Below, one piece after another: positions 18,661-64,000 of a stretch of 64,000 nucleotides of DNA. A program made the translations under genes and the position numbers. Source of the DNA: Synechococcus sp. WH 8109 (lineage in GTDB: Bacteria > Cyanobacteriota > Cyanobacteriia > PCC-6307 > Cyanobiaceae); contig NZ_CP006882.1 in NCBI RefSeq assembly GCF_000161795.2, forward strand, positions 1,984,001-2,048,000. The letters are read 5' to 3'. Position 1 is the first letter of the stretch, and each line of letters starts with the position of its first letter. The notes below the pieces were generated by a model. The model saw nothing but the letters and a program-made list of their open reading frames with translations. It ran no database searches and was not told the origin of the DNA.

Positions 18661-21405
18661 TCAGCTCAGATCCGCCAAGCGCTTGCGCGCCAGCTCGGCC
18701 TGGGCATGCTTCTCATCGAGGTTGGCCTGGCATTCCGCCACCACCTCCGGTGGGGCCTTGTCGGCGAAGTTGGGGTTGCCCAGCCGGCCCGCCAGGCCCT
18801 TGATCTCCTTCTCCGCCTTGGCGATGTCTTTCTCCAGGCGGCCCTTGAGCGCATCGAGATCCACAAGCCCTTCTATCGGCAGCAGCACCTGCAGCTCACC
18901 GCTCACCCCCGCCAGGGCCTTGGCCACCGGAGCCGCATCAGCCTCCGCTGGCGCCATCACCGCCACCGACTCCGCCCGCGTCAAGGCTGTGATGTCGGCC
19001 GTGCCCTCGGTAAGCACAGCCGCCAGCTCGCCGCGGCCGGTGACGAAGCGCACCGGCACCGATTGCGAGGGCTTAAGGCCCGCGACCGCGCGCAGGTTGC
19101 GCACCACACGGATGGCACCGATCAGCTCAGCGAAAGAAGCTTCCAACGCATCATCCAAAGCACTTTCATCCAGGGCCGGCCAGGGCTGCAGGGCCAGGAA
19201 GGTGGTCTCCGGCTCGCCGGTGACGCTGTGCCAGAGCTCCTCAGTGAGGTGGGGCATCAGCGGATGCAGCATCAGATGCATCTGGCTGATCACCTTGGCC
19301 AGCACCTGCTTGGCCACCCGCTGATCTGCAAGGGCCTCGGCCGAGGGGTTCTCACCGGGGTTGAGCCGGCGCTTGCTCAGCTCCAGATACCAATCGCAGA
19401 CGTCGTTCCAGGCGAACTCGTAAAGCCCCTTGGCGGCTTCACCCAGGCCATAGCTGCTGTAGCGCTGGGCCGTCTCCCGGTTCACCCGGGCCAGGCGGGA
19501 GAGAATCCAGCGATCGGCCAGCTGCAGGGCCGCGGGGTCGGATTCACCGAGTTGGGTCGGCGTTTCGCTGCCCAGGTTCATCAGGGCGAAGCGGGTGGCG
19601 TTCCAGAGCTTGTTGGCGAAGTTGCGCGAGGCCTCCACCGTGGCGGAGGTGTCCTTCTTGCGGTCGTAGTCCAGGCGGATGTCCTGACCTGCACCGGCCA
19701 CCTCCCGCACCAAGGCGAAACGCAGGGCATCAGTGCCGTAACGGTCAATCAGCAGCAGCGGATCGATGCCGTTACCGGCGCTCTTGCTCATCTTGCGGTT
19801 CTGCTCATCCCGCACCAGTCCGTGGATGTAGACGTCCTGGAAGGGCATCTCACCGGTGAAGGCGCCGGCCATCATCGTCATCCGGGCCACCCAGAAAAAG
19901 ATGATGTCGAAGCCCGTCACCAGGGTGCTGGTGGGGTACCAGCGCTGCAGGTCAGCGCTGTCGGCATCGGGCCAACCCAGGGTGGAGAAGGGCCAGAGGC
20001 CACTGGAGAACCAGGTGTCGAGCACGTCTTCGTCCTGCTCGATCTCCGCCGCCGCGCCGTACTCCGCCTTGGCCTTCGCCAGGGCTTCGGCTTCGTTACG
20101 GGCCACCACGTAGGGGGTGGTATCGGTGTAAGTACCGCCGGTTTCGCTGATCACGAACCAAGCGGGGATGCGATGGCCCCACCAGAGCTGTCGGCTGATG
20201 CACCAGTCGCGGATGTCGGTGAGCCAGTCGCGGTAGACCTTCTCCCAGCGCCCGGGGATGAAGCGGGGGTCATGCTTCTCGAGGGCCTCACGACAGCGAG
20301 CCGCCAAAGGCTCGGTTTTGACAAACCACTGGGTGGAGAGCAGCGGCTCTACCGGCACCTTGCCGCGATCGGAATAGGGAACGCTGTGGCGGTAGTCCTC
20401 CACCTTGACCAGCAGCCCCAGCTCCTCCAGGCCGGCCACCACGGCCTTGCGGGCCTCGAAGCGATCCAACCCCTCGAACTGGCCGGCCTCCTTGTTCATC
20501 GTGCCGTTCTTGCGCATCACCGTGATCTGGGGCAGACCGTGGCGCTGGCCGATGGCGAAATCGTTGGGGTCGTGGGCCGGTGTCACCTTGACGCAGCCGG
20601 TGCCGAAATCCTTCTCCACGTGGTCGTCGGCCACAATCGGAATCTCCCTCTCCACGAATGGCAGGGTGAGGGTCTGGCCCACCAGGTGGGCGTAGCGCTC
20701 GTCGGTGGGGTTCACCGCGACCGCCGTGTCGCCCAGCATCGTTTCGGGCCGGGTGGTGGCCACCTCCAGGTGGCCGTCGCCGCTGCTGAGCGGATAGCGG
20801 AAATGCCAGAGGTGGCCGTCCACCTCCTTCATCTCCACCTCCAGATCGCTCACCGCCGAACCGGAGGCGGGGCACCAGTTCACCAGGTACTCACCGCGGT
20901 AAATCAGCCCCTGCTCGTGCAGCCGCACGAAGGCCTCCTTCACCGCCTCACTCAGGCCCTCATCAAGGGTGAAGCGCTGGCGCTTCCAATCAACGGAATA
21001 CCCCAACCGCCGCAGCTGGCCCACGATGCGGCCACCGCTTTCGGCCTTCCAATCCCAAGCCCGCTCCAGGAAGGCATCACGACCGAGATCGTGGCGGGTC
21101 TTGCCCTCTTGCTTGAGCTGCTTCTCGAGGATCGTCTGCACCGCGATCGAAGCGTGATCGGTGCCGGGCAAGCAAAGAACGTTCTTCCCCGCCAGGCGTT
21201 GGTAGCGCACGATCGTGTCGATCAGGGCCGTGTTGAAGGCATGGCCCATGTGCAGGCTGCCGGTGACGTTCGGCGGCGGGATCACAACAGAGAACGGTTC
21301 ACCAGGGGCCTTCGGGTCGGGATGAAACGCTCCCTGGTCCTCCCAGGCCTGCTGCCAGCGGGCCTCCGTGCCAGCCGGGTCGTAGGTCTTGGCCAGTTCG
21401 GGCAC
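18661..21405 (-). CDS. valS: Valyl-tRNA synthetase
   Basis: A class I aminoacyl-tRNA synthetase charging tRNA-Val, 914 residues. The HIGH-type motif is [14 protein letters not shown] (about 40-53) and the KMSKS loop is [14 protein letters not shown]1 editing domain lies between (for example [15 protein letters not shown]). The C-terminal coiled-coil arm ([20 protein letters not shown]) is complete. Start is GTG 21405 ([10 protein letters not shown]). The ABC exporter genes follow immediately. Confidence 0.97.
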
Positions 21406-57554: not shown

Positions 57555-57616
57555 GATCGTTCACTTCGCATCGCGCGAAGCGCAGTTCGCCTCAGGCCAT
57601 GGAACGGGGACCTGAG
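57555..57616 (+). promoter_or_regulatory. Probable glutamine riboswitch (downstream-peptide type)
   Basis: The region can fold into a multi-stem junction. Outer stem: CGTTC (57558-57562) with GAACG (57602-57606). Inner hairpin: CTTCGC (57564-57569) with GCGAAG (57575-57580). A competing repeat CTCAGG (57591-57596) / CCTGAG (57611-57616) gives an alternative fold. The conserved-looking strings CGTTCA and GCAGTTCGCC, and the position before a short YRG-motif gene, fit the glutamine type II (downstream-peptide) riboswitch of picocyanobacteria as I remember it. No covariance search was run. Confidence 0.6.
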
Positions 57617-57637
57617 CTTGCTTCGAGGACCATCTCA

Positions 57638-57805
57638 ATGACCACCCTTCTCTACCGCGGTCATCAGTACCAGCAAAACAACGCCACTCAGGGCAAGCCC
57701 GGTGTGCAGCTGGTCTACCGCCGCAACGTGTACCAAGCCCGTCAAATCAGCATCCACCGCACTCCGGTGCAGCTCGTATACCGCGGGGTGGGCTACACGC
57801 GCTAG
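57638..57805 (+). CDS. DUF4278 small protein, PirA-like
   Basis: A 55-residue protein with the DUF4278 hallmark YRG motif twice (TLLYRGHQY at 4-11 and QLVYRGVGY at 46-53) and a related central YRRNVYQA. ATG 57638 (MTTLLYRG) is preferred over ATG 57599, which would put 13 residues inside the leader RNA. Known family relatives include PirA of Synechocystis (about 51 residues), a PII-interacting regulator of arginine synthesis. The preceding NtcA box and probable glutamine riboswitch support a nitrogen-status role. Identity as PirA is inference. Confidence 0.78.
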   Translation: MTTLLYRGHQYQQNNATQGKPGVQLVYRRNVYQARQISIHRTPVQLVYRGVGYTR

Positions 57806-58180: not shown

Positions 58181-58855
58181 TCAAGCCACCAAGCGGTTGA
58201 GCATGGGCAATTCAGACAGTTCATCCCTCCACTGCTGGGCCCAAAGATCCTGACTGCGCTCGTACACCTCCATCAACTGCTCCACGGCGCGCTCGTGAAA
58301 ATCAACGCGCAGATCCAACAACGGGAACGCAGCTTCGCCACTCACCTGCACAGCCGCTGAGGTGCAGAGGTTGGAACGGTGATCACCACCAGCCGCTTCC
58401 CCAGCTTGAAGAGCCATCATTAGGCGACGGCCCAGTTTCAAGCTGGGGTCGCTGGTGAGGAAGGCCTGCTGCATAGCCGCCAACACGGCCTCATCCGCTA
58501 AGCAATTGCCAGCAACAGAGAGGTCACGCTGATGGCGATGCCCTGCCCAAGAGCCGCAATCCTGGCCCGTCCAACAGGCCGTGCGACCGTCCAGGTCAAT
58601 CAGGTGAAACTGACGCCGATCACGATGCTGATCATCGGCAAGAAGGCTGGCCAGAACGCTCTCAGCATCCGAACTCTGCTCCAGACGCTCCAGGCCACAA
58701 ATCCCCAAGTACGGATTGGTGTGGGCCTGGGTGGCGACAGCACCAACCCCCGCGCGGATATGGGGGACGGTGGATCCAACGGCCATATGACAGGTGGCCA
58801 CACCCACTCCAAAACGACCGTTGTTGGGATCACGGGCCAGGATTGAAAAGGTCAC
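58181..58855 (-). CDS. DUF1028 family protein (Ntn-hydrolase-like)
   Basis: A 224-residue protein of the DUF1028 family. It opens with TFSILARDPNNGRFGVGVAT, then AVGSTVPHIRAGVGAVATQA, QAHTNPYLG and the later AGNCLADEAVLAAMQQAF. The family resembles Ntn-hydrolases and is often found beside amidohydrolases of purine, pyrimidine or peptide breakdown. The GTG start overlaps the stop of the M20 hydrolase gene (GTGA), which strongly suggests joint function. The exact reaction is unknown. Confidence 0.82.
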   Translation of the reverse strand: MTFSILARDPNNGRFGVGVATCHMAVGSTVPHIRAGVGAVATQAHTNPYLGICGLERLEQSSDAESVLASLLADDQHRDRRQFHLIDLDGRTACWTGQDCGSWAGHRHQRDLSVAGNCLADEAVLAAMQQAFLTSDPSLKLGRRLMMALQAGEAAGGDHRSNLCTSAAVQVSGEAAFPLLDLRVDFHERAVEQLMEVYERSQDLWAQQWRDELSELPMLNRLVA

Positions 58856-60141
58856 GGCAGCTGACGGTCAAGCCGCAGCAACGTTTCCAGCAGCACCGCG
58901 GTACCTGCACAGCACTGCTCATCGCTGGTGAACTCTGCAGCGGAATGACTCAAGCCCCCCTTACTGGGCACAAAAATCATGCCCATCGGCCAGCGACGGC
59001 CGACCTCCTGGGCATCGTGGCTGGCTCTGCTGGGGAGATGGCTGTGGGACAGGCCGAGATCGGCTGCGGCCTCAGTGATCGTGGCCATCACCACAGCATC
59101 AGCAGGGGTGGGATCAGTGCTGAACTGGGGATCCACCGCAATCGGACAGCCCGTTTCAGCACCGATGCGTTCCACCTGCTGCATCAACTCCTCCACCAAC
59201 TGATCAAGAACGGTCGGATCAACGTCCCTTAGGTCAACGGTCAGGGCGACAGCGCCAGGGACAACATTGGCTGCATTGGGCCAAACCTCCAGTCGACCCA
59301 CCGTCGCCACCGGATCTCCGGGATGACGGGAGGCCATGGCCTCGACGGCAAGAACAAGACGCGAGGCCGCCACGAGGGCGTCCTGTCGCAGCCCCATCGG
59401 TGTCGTGCCGGCGTGGTTGGCCTGGCCCTGCACCTTGATGCTGAACCGACGCTGACCAACAACACCCTCCACAACACCAATGGCATCACCGCGTTGCTCG
59501 AGAACACCGCCCTGCTCAACGTGCAATTCCAGGAAGGCGGCATAGGCCTCATCGGAGCGTCGGGCCGAGGCCAAGGAGGGCCAATGCCCGCCGATACGCG
59601 CCAGATTGTCCTGAATCGGCTGGCCATTGCTGGTAGCAAAACTCTCAGGGTCATCGGAGGCCGTGCCCGTCAAACCCTTGCAGCCCACCATGGTCGACTC
59701 CTCGTCGGCAAAGGCGATCAACTCGATGCCATGTCGCAGGCGCAGGCCCTGGTCTTGAAGAGCGCGGCAGGCTTCCAGACCGGCCAAGACTCCCAGGGCC
59801 CCATCAAAACGTCCACCGGTGGGAACCGTGTCGAGGTGAGACCCGGTGACCAAAGCAGGACAATCGGGATCAAGGCCTTCAAGGCGTCCGATCAAGTTGC
59901 CAGCAGCATCGACCCGCACCTGCATGCCGAGCTGCTTCATCCAATGGGCCAGCAACTCACGGCCCTGCACATCCTCAGGCGAGAACCCGCGTCGACAAAC
60001 GCTGCCATCGGGCTTGGCACCAATTCTGGCCAGCTGCTCAATCGTTTCAACCAAACGATCACGGTTTGGTCGCGCGGCAACTTCGCTTGGCTCGATCCCG
60101 GTTGCGGATTTAGTCGGAGAAGCCGAGATGAGCGTGGGCAA
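58852..60141 (-). CDS. M20 Zn-dependent amidohydrolase (allantoate amidohydrolase / N-carbamoyl-amino acid hydrolase type)
   Basis: A 429-residue enzyme of the AllC/HyuC/beta-ureidopropionase group, which cleaves carbamoyl or ureido groups, releasing ammonia and CO2. Metal ligands are His102 (TGSHLDTVPTGG), Asp113 (GRFDGALG) and Glu147/Glu148 (FADEESTMVGCKG). The dimerisation and substrate part has LELHVEQGGVLEQRGDAIGV, then GQANHAGTTPMGLRQDAL. The choice between allantoate, N-carbamoyl amino acid and ureidopropionate cannot be made from sequence alone. It is coupled to DUF1028 and 94 bases downstream of the AsnB-like gene. Confidence 0.85.
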   Translation of the reverse strand: MPTLISASPTKSATGIEPSEVAARPNRDRLVETIEQLARIGAKPDGSVCRRGFSPEDVQGRELLAHWMKQLGMQVRVDAAGNLIGRLEGLDPDCPALVTGSHLDTVPTGGRFDGALGVLAGLEACRALQDQGLRLRHGIELIAFADEESTMVGCKGLTGTASDDPESFATSNGQPIQDNLARIGGHWPSLASARRSDEAYAAFLELHVEQGGVLEQRGDAIGVVEGVVGQRRFSIKVQGQANHAGTTPMGLRQDALVAASRLVLAVEAMASRHPGDPVATVGRLEVWPNAANVVPGAVALTVDLRDVDPTVLDQLVEELMQQVERIGAETGCPIAVDPQFSTDPTPADAVVMATITEAAADLGLSHSHLPSRASHDAQEVGRRWPMGMIFVPSKGGLSHSAAEFTSDEQCCAGTAVLLETLLRLDRQLP

Positions 60142-60235
60142 TGCCGTGACCTTCGTTTCAAACGGAGGTCAATATTCACCCGAAAACCCGCGGAGCCTTG
60201 TAGCTAGCGCAACGATTTAACCCTGACCAAAGAAT

Positions 60236-62260
60236 TCAAACGGGCATCAGCACCCGCCAGCCCAGACGGTCAGCCTCCCGACGGGCCAGGGCTGGCACGT
60301 CTTCGGCCACAAACATGCGGTGCAGCATCTGCACACCCAGCAGGTGGTTGATCACCGCATCCATCTGCACACGCTCCGCATCAGTGGTAGCCGGGTCCTC
60401 ATGACGCGCAAACAAGGCACGCACTCCGGCTTTGCTCAACAAACCAGCGGCATCGATCACCTCATCACTGAGGTAGTCGTCGGCGAGCTGCTTCATCTGC
60501 TCCCACTTCTCAGGCTCTGTGTGGGCTGGCGGCGCCATGAAGGCGAACTTCTCACGCCGATACAACACCTCCGGCAACAGGCCCGCCATGGCTTCCCGCA
60601 GCACGTATTTCTCGGTTTTCCCCTTGATCCGCAGTTCGGGCGGCACCTGCACCGCTACTGCTGCCAGATGATGATCCAGGAAGGCTGGTCGTGCCTCCAT
60701 GGAATTGGCCATGTCGACCCGGTCGCCACCCCAGGTGAGGATCTGGCCCTCCAGCATGGTCTTGATCCAGACGTACTGGGCCTTGTCCAGGGCATGGCGC
60801 CCGTCCAGTTGATCCGCATCCAGTTGCTCGGCAATCGCCTTGCCCGGGGAGTAATCCTTCAGGGCTTCGGCATGGGACTGCGCCAGAAGCTCAGGCACCA
60901 AGGGCGCGCAGGCCAGCCACGGCTGCAGACAGCTGGGGGTGAAGCCGACCACCGCATCGAGATCGGGATCATCCACCTGGTTTTCAGCCAGCATCGCCCC
61001 TTGAACCAGGGCATTGGACTGCTGCAAAAGACTTTCCCAGCTGGCGCGCTCCTCCCGCGGCAGGTCATCCAAACCGTGCAGGAACATGTCGCGGCGAAAT
61101 GCGGGATAGCCGCCGAACAGCTCATCTGAGCCTTCACCGGTCATCACAACTTTGTAGTCCACATCGTTGACGTGGCGGCTCATCAAGAACTTCGCCACCG
61201 CCAAGGTGTTGTAGATCGTTCGCTCGGCATGCCAGATGGTGCGCTCCATATGGCCATAGAGCTCCTGGCCCGAAAGACGCATCAGATCCTGCTCAGCCCC
61301 CGTGGCCTCGGCCATCTCCCGGGCGATCGGCGACTCGTCGTAACGGGCGTCATCAAATCCGATCGTGAACGCCTTCACCGGTGCCTGGCTGACGGCTGAC
61401 GCCAAGCCGAGGATCGAACAGCTGTCGATGCCGCCGGAGAGGTAACAACCCACGGGCACGTCGGCCACCATGCGCAGCTCAACGGCCTCCAGCAACGCCG
61501 CACGAACGGCAGCGATGTGCTCGGCCTCAGTTCGGTTGGAGTCCCGCTCGTCTTTACGCGGAAAGTCGACATCCCAGTAGGTGGACTCCGATACCTCCAG
61601 CCGCCCACTCACCCGTTGCACCTTCAGCACATGGCCGGGCTTCACCTGGTGCACCCCCGCAAAGGCTGTGGTGCCGGGGACCATGGTCTGCATCAACTGG
61701 TGGAAGAGACCTTCCGAGGTGAAGCGTCGCTCCACCGCCGGATGGGCGAAGAGCACCTTCAACTCGGAACCGAACACCAGCCCCTCGGGCGTCATCGCCC
61801 AGTACTGCGGTTTAATGCCGAAGCGATCCCTCACTAGGTAGAGGCAGTCCTCTGCCCGATCAAACAAGGCGAAGGCGAACTCACCGCGCAACAGAGGCAG
61901 GGTCGCCTCTAACCCCTGGCGTTGGTAGAGCCGAAGCAGGATCTCTGAATCACTCTTGCTGCTGAAACGCACCCCTTGGGCGGTGAGGTCAGCCCTGATG
62001 CGCTGGAAGTCGTAAAACTCACCGTTGTGGGCCATCAGCACCTCACCGTCATCGGTGAGGAAGGGCTGCCGAGCCCGCGACTCGTTCAGGTCAATGATCG
62101 AAAGGCGCGCATGGCAGAAGCCGACGCCGGCCTGATCGAGCACCTCAACCCCGAAGCCGTCGGGCCCGCGATGGGCCTGGATCGCCGCCATGTTGACCAG
62201 CAGCTGGCGATCCACCGTCTGTTGACGGTCTGCATTGAAAACACCTCCGATTCCACACAT
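60236..62260 (-). CDS. asnB: Asparagine synthase (glutamine-hydrolysing) AsnB-like
   Basis: A 674-residue class II glutamine amidotransferase. The N-terminal nucleophile is Cys2 (MCGIGGVFNA), with HNGEFYDFQRIR and LRGEFAFALFDRA in the glutaminase domain. The synthetase domain has the PP-loop SGGIDSCSILGLA and GEGSDELFGGYPAF. It is longer than E. coli AsnB (554), as is common for the bacterial AsnB type used both for asparagine and for other amidations. It starts nine bases after an ATCase-like transcarbamylase. Plain asparagine synthesis is the default reading; amidation of another acid cannot be excluded. Confidence 0.88.
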   Translation of the reverse strand: MCGIGGVFNADRQQTVDRQLLVNMAAIQAHRGPDGFGVEVLDQAGVGFCHARLSIIDLNESRARQPFLTDDGEVLMAHNGEFYDFQRIRADLTAQGVRFSSKSDSEILLRLYQRQGLEATLPLLRGEFAFALFDRAEDCLYLVRDRFGIKPQYWAMTPEGLVFGSELKVLFAHPAVERRFTSEGLFHQLMQTMVPGTTAFAGVHQVKPGHVLKVQRVSGRLEVSESTYWDVDFPRKDERDSNRTEAEHIAAVRAALLEAVELRMVADVPVGCYLSGGIDSCSILGLASAVSQAPVKAFTIGFDDARYDESPIAREMAEATGAEQDLMRLSGQELYGHMERTIWHAERTIYNTLAVAKFLMSRHVNDVDYKVVMTGEGSDELFGGYPAFRRDMFLHGLDDLPREERASWESLLQQSNALVQGAMLAENQVDDPDLDAVVGFTPSCLQPWLACAPLVPELLAQSHAEALKDYSPGKAIAEQLDADQLDGRHALDKAQYVWIKTMLEGQILTWGGDRVDMANSMEARPAFLDHHLAAVAVQVPPELRIKGKTEKYVLREAMAGLLPEVLYRREKFAFMAPPAHTEPEKWEQMKQLADDYLSDEVIDAAGLLSKAGVRALFARHEDPATTDAERVQMDAVINHLLGVQMLHRMFVAEDVPALARREADRLGWRVLMPV

Positions 62261-62269
62261 CAGATCGCC

Positions 62270-63385
62270 TCAGATCACATCCATCACGCGTTCGGCCCGA
62301 TCCACCATGCAGGTGAGCAGGGCCATCCTCAGGAACACGGCTCCCCTGGCCTGACTGAAATACCAGTTGTGGGGCGTGTCATCCAGGCAGGTGCTGAGTT
62401 CCGCTCCCCGCGCCAAGGGATGGAGCACAATCGCCTCCGGCTTGAATGGCATGTCGCGGGTGAGGCGAAATCCTCCGCCGTGCACTTCATAGGAATCGCC
62501 CACCCAGGCGATGGCGTTGATGTAAATGACATCCAAGTCGGGCACTTCAGCCTGCAGGTCGGTGCTGGAGCGCACCTTCATCCCACACGCTTCAAGCTCC
62601 TCCAACTGTCCTGGGTCGAACAGCGGCTGATCCGGCTCCAACCCGGGGGCGTGAATCACCACCACCTCGTCCACCGTCTGCGGGAATTTGGCCAGGATCC
62701 TCAACAGGGAGCGAACCGTTCGCATCCGCGAGGGAATCCCGACGATCCCAATGCGAATCCGATCTGCGGGTGCCACGTCCAACTCAGCGAGCTGGGGCCG
62801 CCACTTAAAGATTGTGTAGAGATCGGCCATCGCCTGGGTGGGATGCTCATCGATCCCATTTCCAGCGTTGATGATCGGGATCCGAAGGGTGGACGTCATT
62901 GCATAAACGGCACCGGGATCGCTATCCCGAAGCACCACACAATCGCCATAGTTGTTGAACATATGGGCGACATCTTCGAGAGACTCGCCCTTGGCAATCC
63001 CTGTGGTGGCCCTGTCGGTGATGTTGATGGAGGTACCGCCGAGTCGGTGCCAGGCACTGTCAAAAGACAGCCGGGTGCGGGTGCTTGGTTCGTAAAACGC
63101 GTTGATCAGAATCTTGCCGGTGAGTGGCGTGTTGTGACGGCAATAGCGATCTGGATTGCTTTCAAACTTCGCCGCCAGGCGAAACACCTGCAACAAAGCC
63201 TCGGGGCGAAACGGTTGGATCGACACCACGTGCTGATCCACCAAATCCTTCAAAGGCTCAACGTCTTCGGCAATCGCAGCCAACAGCTCCTGAGGTTGGT
63301 TCTGCCCATAGACATCGGGCCCCATCGGCTCAAACCGAATCTGGACCGACGACGCGTCCACAACTGCTGATTTGGCCTGTGCCAT
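62270..63385 (-). CDS. ATCase-like transcarbamylase of uncertain specificity
   Basis: A 371-residue carbamoyltransferase. Carbamoyl-phosphate sites are intact: STRTR (101-105) in NAFYEPSTRTRLSFDS, Lys132 (GIAKGESLED) and HPTQ (181-184). HPLAR (322-326) replaces the usual HPLPR. The loop that in aspartate carbamoyltransferases carries the aspartate-binding RxQxER pattern reads here YINAIAWVGDSYEVHGGG, without those residues. It also has about 50 extra N-terminal residues compared with PyrB. It belongs to the ATCase side of the family, yet the second substrate may not be aspartate. It precedes the AsnB-like gene by nine bases. Confidence 0.82.
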   Translation of the reverse strand: MAQAKSAVVDASSVQIRFEPMGPDVYGQNQPQELLAAIAEDVEPLKDLVDQHVVSIQPFRPEALLQVFRLAAKFESNPDRYCRHNTPLTGKILINAFYEPSTRTRLSFDSAWHRLGGTSINITDRATTGIAKGESLEDVAHMFNNYGDCVVLRDSDPGAVYAMTSTLRIPIINAGNGIDEHPTQAMADLYTIFKWRPQLAELDVAPADRIRIGIVGIPSRMRTVRSLLRILAKFPQTVDEVVVIHAPGLEPDQPLFDPGQLEELEACGMKVRSSTDLQAEVPDLDVIYINAIAWVGDSYEVHGGGFRLTRDMPFKPEAIVLHPLARGAELSTCLDDTPHNWYFSQARGAVFLRMALLTCMVDRAERVMDVI

Positions 63386-63452
63386 AGCGGAATCGGATCA
63401 ACACCCTGTTTGCCAGACCGAGTGCTAGAGCCAGGAACTACATCTTTCACCG

Positions 63453-63466
63453 GTAACAACAACCAC
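63453..63466 (-). promoter_or_regulatory. Possible NtcA box before the transcarbamylase gene
   Basis: On the minus strand GTGGTTGTTGTTAC matches GT-N10-AC, with one mismatch to GTA-N8-TAC. It lies 68 bases before the transcarbamylase start. No convincing -10 box at the expected spacing. Confidence 0.28.
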
Positions 63467-63546
63467 ACTCCTGCGTCCACGAAGAAGCAGCTTCTTAAGC
63501 AAAGATCCGGAAAGGATTGTGCTGGGGTGGACGGCTAAAGGAGACA

Positions 63547-63696
63547 TCACCAAACCCGGCCATTGCGCCACTCCACCCACCAGATCAGCAGCAACACGAG
63601 CACCGACAGCACCAGGGCGAACTGACTGGCCACCAGCAAAAACTGAAAGCCAGACAGACCAACAAGGCCGGCCATCAAAGGAAGCGTTTGGATCAT
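63547..63696 (-). CDS. 49-residue membrane protein coupled to the symporter
   Basis: A short protein whose ATG overlaps the stop of the symporter gene (ATGA). It contains a single long hydrophobic stretch, FLLVASQFALVLSVLVLLLI, followed by WWVEWRNGRVW, and an N-terminal hydrophobic part (MIQTLPLMAGLVGLSG). It could be an accessory subunit of the symporter, as small subunits are known for other SSS-family transporters. No family assignment possible. Confidence 0.6.
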   Translation of the reverse strand: MIQTLPLMAGLVGLSGFQFLLVASQFALVLSVLVLLLIWWVEWRNGRVW

Positions 63697-64000
63697 CCCT
63701 CCTCCTGCAACAAGGTGAAGTCGAAGCGTTCCGGCCAGAACCGACTGCCCATCAGCATCACAATCGCCGACACGGCCGCCGAAAACACAGCAGCGCAGTA
63801 AGGCGCGATCAGCACATAGGCGAGCAGGCCCACAACGCTGCCGGCGAGCATGGCCGCAATGGCAGCCGTACGGTTGGCTGTACGCCAGTACAAACCGCAG
63901 GCCACAGGCCAGACCGTGGATGCCACCAGGGCACCGGTGAAAAACAGCACCGACGCAAGCGAATCCAGCCGTGGCCAGGACAGCGCCAGGGTGACGACGG
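63693..64000 (-). CDS. Sodium:solute symporter (SSS family), C-terminal part
   Basis: The final 102 codons of a gene that continues beyond the window. It shows three hydrophobic segments: VLFFTGALVASTVWPVACGL, then IAAMLAGSVVGLLAYVLIAP and AAVFSAAVSAIVMLMGSRFW. The pattern WPVACGLYWRTANRTAA is typical of SSS transporters near their last helices (related to urea, pantothenate or proline symporters). The solute cannot be determined. It lies upstream of, and reads in the same direction as, the transcarbamylase-AsnB-amidohydrolase genes. Confidence 0.78.
   Translation of the reverse strand, partial: VVTLALSWPRLDSLASVLFFTGALVASTVWPVACGLYWRTANRTAAIAAMLAGSVVGLLAYVLIAPYCAAVFSAAVSAIVMLMGSRFWPERFDFTLLQEEG

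Follow-up and report, generated by a model that had tools for sequence, protein, structure and literature searches.

The window analysed here is a stretch of 64,000 nucleotides of Synechococcus sp. WH 8109 (contig NZ_CP006882.1, positions 1,984,001 to 2,048,000 of the forward strand), and the system in question is a block of six genes at its right-hand end (Table 1), which encode a sodium:solute symporter of the SSS type, a 49-residue hydrophobic protein, a transcarbamylase (TC) resembling aspartate transcarbamylase (ATCase), an AsnB-like glutamine amidotransferase, an M20 amidohydrolase and a DUF1028 protein. An earlier reading made from the letters alone (the sequence-only reading) had described six leftward frames with these domains, their overlaps and a 9-base gap, and both the coordinates and the Pfam matches confirmed this description. 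The gap of 9 bases lies between the AsnB-like gene and TC. The symporter gene overlaps the 49-residue frame by 4 bases and runs past the end of the window, its full length being 476 amino acids (L002:7694-9124).

Table 1. Genes of the six-gene block, in window coordinates.
Feature	Position	Strand	Domains and remarks
DUF1028 protein	58181-58855	-	PF06267 4.3e-66
M20 amidohydrolase	58852-60141	-	Peptidase_M20; 4-base overlap with the DUF1028 gene
AsnB-like glutamine amidotransferase	60236-62260	-	GATase and Asn_synthase domains
TC, ATCase-like transcarbamylase	62270-63385	-	OTCace_N 3.3e-39, OTCace 3.1e-14
49-residue hydrophobic protein, probable symporter partner	63547-63696	-	
SSS sodium:solute symporter, 3' part	63693-64000	-	Pfam SSF 1.1e-30

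The 49-residue protein has no Pfam or NCBIfam match. The frame was matched between the symporter gene and TC in all 14 symporter-bearing cyanobacterial loci (36-96% identity), and weak matches (E about 3e-4 to 0.2) were found at the same position in several gammaproteobacterial loci; on this comparison we regard it as a real gene. Just past the DUF1028 stop codon, at about 58160-58118, an inverted repeat followed by T's was noticed by eye (it was not scored), so that the gene set probably ends there.

Searching the genome collection with TC as query turned up 118 related stretches, and gene order was counted in the 80 best of them. These loci, 40 of them cyanobacterial and 40 gammaproteobacterial, come from marine Synechococcus, Cyanobium, Prochlorococcus, Kangiella, Pseudoalteromonas, Alteromonas, Thioalkalivibrio, Ectothiorhodospira, Nitrosomonas halophila and others. 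Two of them, labelled as a gammaproteobacterium (L018) and as a Trichodesmium metagenome-assembled genome (L026), were tallied as cyanobacterial; their copies match the Synechococcus and Prochlorococcus types, and the contigs were probably binned wrongly. An AsnB-like gene of the same type was found downstream of TC, on the same strand and within about 390 bases, in 78 of the 80 loci (median gap about 12 bases), including one locus (L030) that was entered as adjacent on a broken AsnB start at a contig end. The two loci without an adjacent AsnB are L020, where the contig ends at TC, and L084 of Thiorhodospira sibirica, whose AsnB (65% identical) is located at a separate place in the genome (L159). 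The symporter gene lies upstream of TC in all 14 non-Prochlorococcus cyanobacterial loci and in 34/40 gammaproteobacterial loci, and was found in none of the 26 Prochlorococcus-type loci, four of which are too short to show one. An M20 match is present in 68 loci. The symporter, the small membrane protein, TC, the AsnB-like protein and the M20 enzyme form a conserved module. The sequence-only reading had grouped all six genes, and its grouping is right, with the correction that DUF1028 belongs only to the cyanobacterial version (31/40 cyanobacterial loci vs 0/40 gammaproteobacterial loci). The same reading had suggested that gene order be compared across genomes, with scatter speaking against a common role, and this objection fails, as the genes do not scatter. 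Its wider claim of one functional unit around a carbamoyl or ureido compound, in which an unusually specific transcarbamylase is joined by a hydrolase of the carbamoylase type, is supported.

The two central genes also travel together in whole genomes. Among 250 picocyanobacterial genomes of the window's family, TC is present in 54, all of which carry an AsnB of the matching kind, at about 62% identity or higher; the sole genome with AsnB only (G490) has a contig that ends inside TC, and one genome (G374) carries the whole set twice (second copy L152). Of 369 Gammaproteobacteria sampled across the class, including the genome of the query itself, 25 carry a TC-like gene, 23 of these being close relatives, and AsnB is adjacent in 21 of the 23, the remaining two being cut by contig ends. 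Phylogenetic trees of TC and AsnB were built from 39 loci, chosen from the 76 with both genes, and were rooted at the midpoint. The cyanobacterial TCs form one group, sister to those of the Ectothiorhodospiraceae (96/91), with five PyrB rows outside, and the AsnB tree, made by a quick method, mainly agrees with it. A single transfer into the picocyanobacterial line followed by losses would be the simplest account, to which we assign no direction. By eye, the Prochlorococcus cassette of TC, AsnB, M20 and DUF1028 (L041, L024, L036, L151) is located in differing chromosomal neighbourhoods, as if it moved as a unit.

The window genome contains three OTCace_N genes, and so does each of ten other TC genomes, all of which have a PyrB-type gene with the motif RxQxER and nine of which have an ArgF-type gene with DxxxSMG (the third OTCace_N gene of the tenth was absent from the alignment). 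This gene content places TC as a third transcarbamylase beside the PyrB and ArgF types, and the possibility, raised in the sequence-only reading, that it is the only PyrB of its genome fails. The structure model of TC (mean pLDDT 76.2, low confidence at residues 325-334) matches the ATCase fold (Foldseek E 2.6e-20 to 1ekx). The marine Synechococcus strain MU1642 carries a TC that is at least 99.7% identical to that of the window. TC scores below the cut-offs of the ATCase model TIGR00670 (192.7 bits, cut-off 236.95), the ornithine model TIGR00658 (98.8 bits, cut-off 280.85) and the YgeW models TIGR03316 (28.6 bits, cut-off 500) and NF005538 (31.8 bits, cut-off 453). The profile scores led us to reject a YgeW-type or ornithine carbamoyltransferase, and a second pyrimidine ATCase was rejected because RxQxER is lost and separate PyrB-type genes exist.

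The residues of the active site were analysed in an alignment of 120 rows, consisting of the window TC and copies of at least 54% identity that span residues 30 to 355 of the query, with shorter and truncated copies excluded; some single genes were fetched twice (e.g. L090, L114, L160), so that the rows hold 108 distinct sequences. According to the available parts of PMC4581275, R229 and Q231 of ATCase anchor the beta-carboxyl of aspartate, R167 with K84 positions the alpha-carboxyl, the RxQxER motif of the 240's loop is said to occur in all known ATCases, and DxxxSMG is the motif of ornithine carbamoyltransferase. All 120 TC rows retain the carbamoyl-phosphate motifs SxRT and HPxQ as well as S52-T55, K84, R105, H134, Q137, R167 and T168 (Escherichia coli ATCase numbering). 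In the same 120 rows R229 is replaced by A, S or T, Q231 by A, S, V or T, and the S80 position is Gly, whereas RxQxER was retained in all 11 PyrB-type control rows; the transcarbamylase without the aspartate loop that had been noticed from the letters is thus borne out. The loop of TC reads NAIAWVG in the printed rows, not DxxxSMG. As the residues for the alpha-carboxylate are kept and R229 and Q231 are lost, the expected acceptor is an alpha-amino acid whose alpha-carboxylate is free and whose side chain carries no charge, and the need for a free alpha-carboxylate suggests that carbamoylation would precede any amidation of that group. We propose that TC is an L-glutamine N-alpha-carbamoyltransferase. 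Three TC-like genes left out of the alignment (L183, L184 and L185, from G663, G773 and, as a second copy, G747) are about 40% identical to the Ectothiorhodospira TC, have broken SxRT and K84 motifs and do not have AsnB next to them, which is why they were left out; they belong to another family, perhaps one that does not carbamoylate.

In the translation of the AsnB-like gene an N-terminal Cys2 and an SGGIDS motif can be read. The protein exceeds the cut-off of TIGR01536, the glutamine-hydrolysing asparagine synthase (429.7 bits, cut-off 267.1), a score that leaves the acceptor undecided. The gene is the sole full-length PF00733 gene of the window genome, and the sequence-only reading had considered that it might be the housekeeping enzyme; this was rejected, because G007 and G014, two genomes of the same genus that lack TC and are 98-99% complete, showed no AsnB match at 1e-15. 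The available text of PMC8070244 describes an AsnB-family enzyme, AsnO, that amidates the alpha-carboxyl of N-acetylglutaminylglutamine. We propose that the AsnB-like protein is an N-carbamoylglutamine 1-amide synthase.

The product expected from these two proposed activities is N-carbamoylglutamine amide (CGA), a salt-protecting solute described in 1991 (C6H12N4O3, calculated m/z 189.0982 with one added proton). CGA has been reported from Ectothiorhodospira marismortui (PMC1224877 and PMC3857566, as far as the available parts go), and the genome of DSM 4180, the type strain of this species, is given as FOUO00000000 in the accessible portion of PMC8877833. On contig NZ_FOUO01000006 of DSM 4180 (L090), genes for an M20 enzyme, an isochorismatase-fold cysteine hydrolase, TC and AsnB stand in a row; from the species we infer that the CGA of 1991 was isolated from DSM 4180 itself. 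We consider it fairly likely that the module serves the synthesis, uptake and recycling of CGA, a scheme of which we infer the substrates, products, step order, transport and recycling alike. TC would move the carbamoyl group of carbamoyl phosphate onto the alpha-amino group of L-glutamine, after which the AsnB-like enzyme would use ATP and a second glutamine to convert the alpha-carboxylate to the amide, yielding CGA. The SSS symporter, for which re-uptake of solute is the probable role, would retrieve leaked or external solute together with its 49-residue partner. When salinity drops or the cell requires nitrogen, the 1-amide would be stripped by DUF1028 as the amidase of cyanobacteria, or by the cysteine hydrolase in Ectothiorhodospiraceae, and the M20 enzyme would then strip the carbamoyl group, leaving glutamine, CO2 and ammonia. 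The synthetic direction is preferred because an ATP-consuming amidotransferase is tied to TC.

The residue evidence fits any alpha-amino acid with a non-carboxylate side chain, glutamine or asparagine alike, and does not single out glutamine, and CGA has been reported from few organisms. TC and AsnB might therefore make another neutral carbamoylated and amidated amino acid, e.g. from asparagine, as a compatible solute or nitrogen store; we hold this unlikely, since CGA is the only matching natural solute known to us and DSM 4180, of the source species, carries the pair.

A relation of the proposed CGA module to salt is suggested by its distribution. Among the 250 picocyanobacterial genomes, with ggpS called present when its score exceeded the cut-off, TC was found in 44 of the 77 ggpS-positive but in only 10 of the 173 ggpS-negative genomes (odds ratio 21.7, Fisher p 1e-18, a value inflated by relatedness). 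Eight of the ten ggpS-negative carriers belong to one genus with small genomes, g17 (probably Prochlorococcus), and in one member of this genus (G471) ggpS lies about 380 bases upstream of the cassette in the same direction. The named gammaproteobacterial carriers presumably live in the sea, in saline waters or in soda lakes. According to the part of PMC9361551 at hand, ggpSP occurs in two freshwater strains, and one of these, Cyanobium ATX 6A2, carries the TC and AsnB pair (L022). In what was accessible of PMC7824335, Thiorhodospira sibirica is described as having no annotated osmotic genes, with sucrose, CGA and N-acetylglutaminylglutamine amide (NAGGN) named as candidates, and Ectothiorhodospira magna as being without betaine and ectoine synthesis; both species have TC and AsnB (L158/L159 and L089, respectively). 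The product might instead be a nitrogen store or a signalling metabolite and not an osmolyte: four nitrogens in each molecule and a recycling arm next to urea genes would suit nitrogen storage, and nitrogen genes are indeed neighbours and hydrolases are encoded together with the synthesis genes. The ggpS association, including the ggpS gene adjoining the cassette in G471, and the relatives of a MarR-family regulator near seven loci (confirmed by Pfam for the query one only) speak against this explanation, which we rate as very unlikely.

The recycling arm is the least certain part of the model. The window M20 enzyme exceeds the cut-offs of NF006771 and TIGR01879, the only ones passed among the matches listed, and NF006771 is exceeded by all five M20 enzymes tested. 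The M20 enzyme was aligned to 3n5f, and in an alignment of 73 M20 rows the residues H102, D113, E147, E148, H207 and H399, which we take to be metal ligands, and R305, presumably the carboxylate-binding arginine, are kept throughout. On these scores and residues, the substrate of the M20 enzymes is probably a carbamoyl compound whose carboxylate is free, so that CGA would have to lose its 1-amide first, and we propose the window M20 enzyme as the N-carbamoyl(glutamine) hydrolase of the recycling arm. The DUF1028 model has an Ntn fold of the proteasome/HslV type (HslV 6kr1, Z 12.3, rmsd 3.3 over 147), its residues 2-172 aligning with residues 1-171 of the 1m4y chain, which places residue 2 on residue 1 of the HslV/proteasome beta chains. 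Thr2 is present in all 38 rows (35 distinct) and could serve as an N-terminal nucleophile after removal of Met; the nearest solved structure, 2imh, was deposited as a hypothetical protein. From the modelled fold, DUF1028 may be the enzyme that takes off the 1-amide in cyanobacteria, whereas the gene beside M20 in Ectothiorhodospira and Thioalkalivibrio encodes a cysteine hydrolase.

To the left of the block are genes for a urease alpha subunit, a UreG/CobW-type GTPase and a periplasmic binding protein, in accordance with the urea-type neighbours described from the letters, and on the other side a molybdopterin-type oxidoreductase and an MFS transporter are found. Together with the symporter and an M20 enzyme of the carbamoylase family, these neighbours agree with the main role given to the block in the sequence-only reading, namely that a ureido or carbamoyl compound is imported from outside and dismantled, TC working towards carbamoyl phosphate and M20 freeing ammonia. 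We consider this quite unlikely. AsnB, which spends ATP and glutamine, accompanies TC; the Prochlorococcus cassette occurs in other neighbourhoods and without a symporter; and four gammaproteobacterial 21-kb loci (L070, L081, L084 and L088) have no M20 match. No carbamate kinase exceeded the family cut-off in any of eight genomes, but only 2 of 14 controls pass it, so that such absence is common; seven of the eight show weak matches under the cut-off, probably to other amino-acid kinases. Given the tie of AsnB to TC, the association with ggpS and the presence of the pair in the CGA source species, breakdown is probably wrong as the main direction, although some of it may be carried out by the hydrolytic arm.

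Several further observations weigh against CGA synthesis as the role of the module. CGA is described in the available part of PMC3857566 as a minor solute of E. marismortui, unseen in Raman spectra and known from that one organism. The portions at hand of the salt literature on picocyanobacteria name sugars, glucosylglycerol, glucosylglycerate and betaine only, and no carbamoyl compound; in the open-access literature no report was found of CGA genes, of CGA in cyanobacteria or of TC or AsnB tied to salt, and a search by the formula or mass of CGA returned no title on marine cyanobacteria or osmolytes. As the genomes are related, the ggpS association does not consist of independent events, and TC is missing from G007 and G014 although both carry ggpS. 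E. marismortui has eight PF00733 matches, so that other AsnB-family genes could perform the amidation there. The cyanobacterial and gammaproteobacterial M20 enzymes are only 32-38% identical, and where the former have Asn292, His stands in 24 of the 32 gammaproteobacterial rows, which means that the substrate of the two groups may differ; nitrogen scavenging would be another fit for M20 and DUF1028 next to urea genes. Two unclassified proteobacteria (L065 and L080) stand next to the cyanobacteria in the AsnB tree but not in the TC tree. Lastly, all 120 TC rows have HPLA in place of HxLP, the usual motif of the transcarbamylase superfamily (PMC4581275, in part); this decides nothing, because the literal HxLP is also missing there in several true PyrB-type rows, as it is in two ArgF-type control rows.

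Beyond the symporter gene in marine Synechococcus, divergently oriented genes encode a circularly permuted ATP-grasp protein, an Alpha-E protein and a transglutaminase-like protein (L002:9439-12778, +). These were left out of the module because they are not beside the second copy of the set (L152), the Prochlorococcus cassettes or the gammaproteobacterial loci, with the exception of L080, where an ATP-grasp and Alpha-E pair (19161-20948) lies about 6 kb from the module. Within the window, a frame of 68 amino acids at 57599-57805 (+) contains repeated QLVYRR/QLVYRG and matches DUF4278 (1.7e-6). Directly upstream of the symporter gene, at L053:7889-8425 (+) and at similar places in other gammaproteobacterial loci, a protein of about 178 amino acids is encoded whose tail is hydrophobic and which matches no Pfam family; weak matches to it were found in some twenty loci.

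Compatible solutes fix the salt range of Earth's most abundant phototrophs and feed the surrounding bacteria. If the proposal is true, a solute that has four nitrogens to six carbons would be surprising in nitrogen-poor water and would add a new compound to the dissolved organic nitrogen worth searching for. Candidate genes would then be at hand for a solute described three decades ago, a transcarbamylase of new specificity would be recognised, and DUF1028 would gain a possible role.

Among known systems, the module can be compared with the asnO-ngg genes for NAGGN (PA3459-PA3461 of Pseudomonas aeruginosa), as described in the available sections of PMC8070244. In both, an AsnB-family enzyme amidates, or would amidate, an N-alpha-blocked glutamine derivative, taking the nitrogen from glutamine, and the NAGGN system likewise has a peptidase gene alongside, a MarR-type regulator and a link to osmoprotection. 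The NAGGN system differs in that the acetylating Ngg stands in the place of the transcarbamylase, the product proposed here contains no second glutamine, and the AsnB-like protein of the block scores below the cut-off of TIGR03104, the N-acetylglutaminylglutamine amidotransferase (301.6 bits, cut-off 570.1). TC shares with PyrB its fold and carbamoyl-phosphate site and is 32% identical to E. coli PyrB, but it lacks RxQxER, falls below the TIGR00670 cut-off and occurs in carriers that own a separate PyrB-type gene. For the window M20 enzyme, the best-scoring NCBIfam model is ErtE, an N-carbamyl-L-glutamate amidohydrolase (NF058540, 436.5 bits), yet the score is under its cut-off of 520. A further likeness, in chemistry, is to the CGA of E. 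marismortui, whose structure is the one expected for the product of TC and AsnB acting on glutamine, in a species whose strain DSM 4180 carries the pair.

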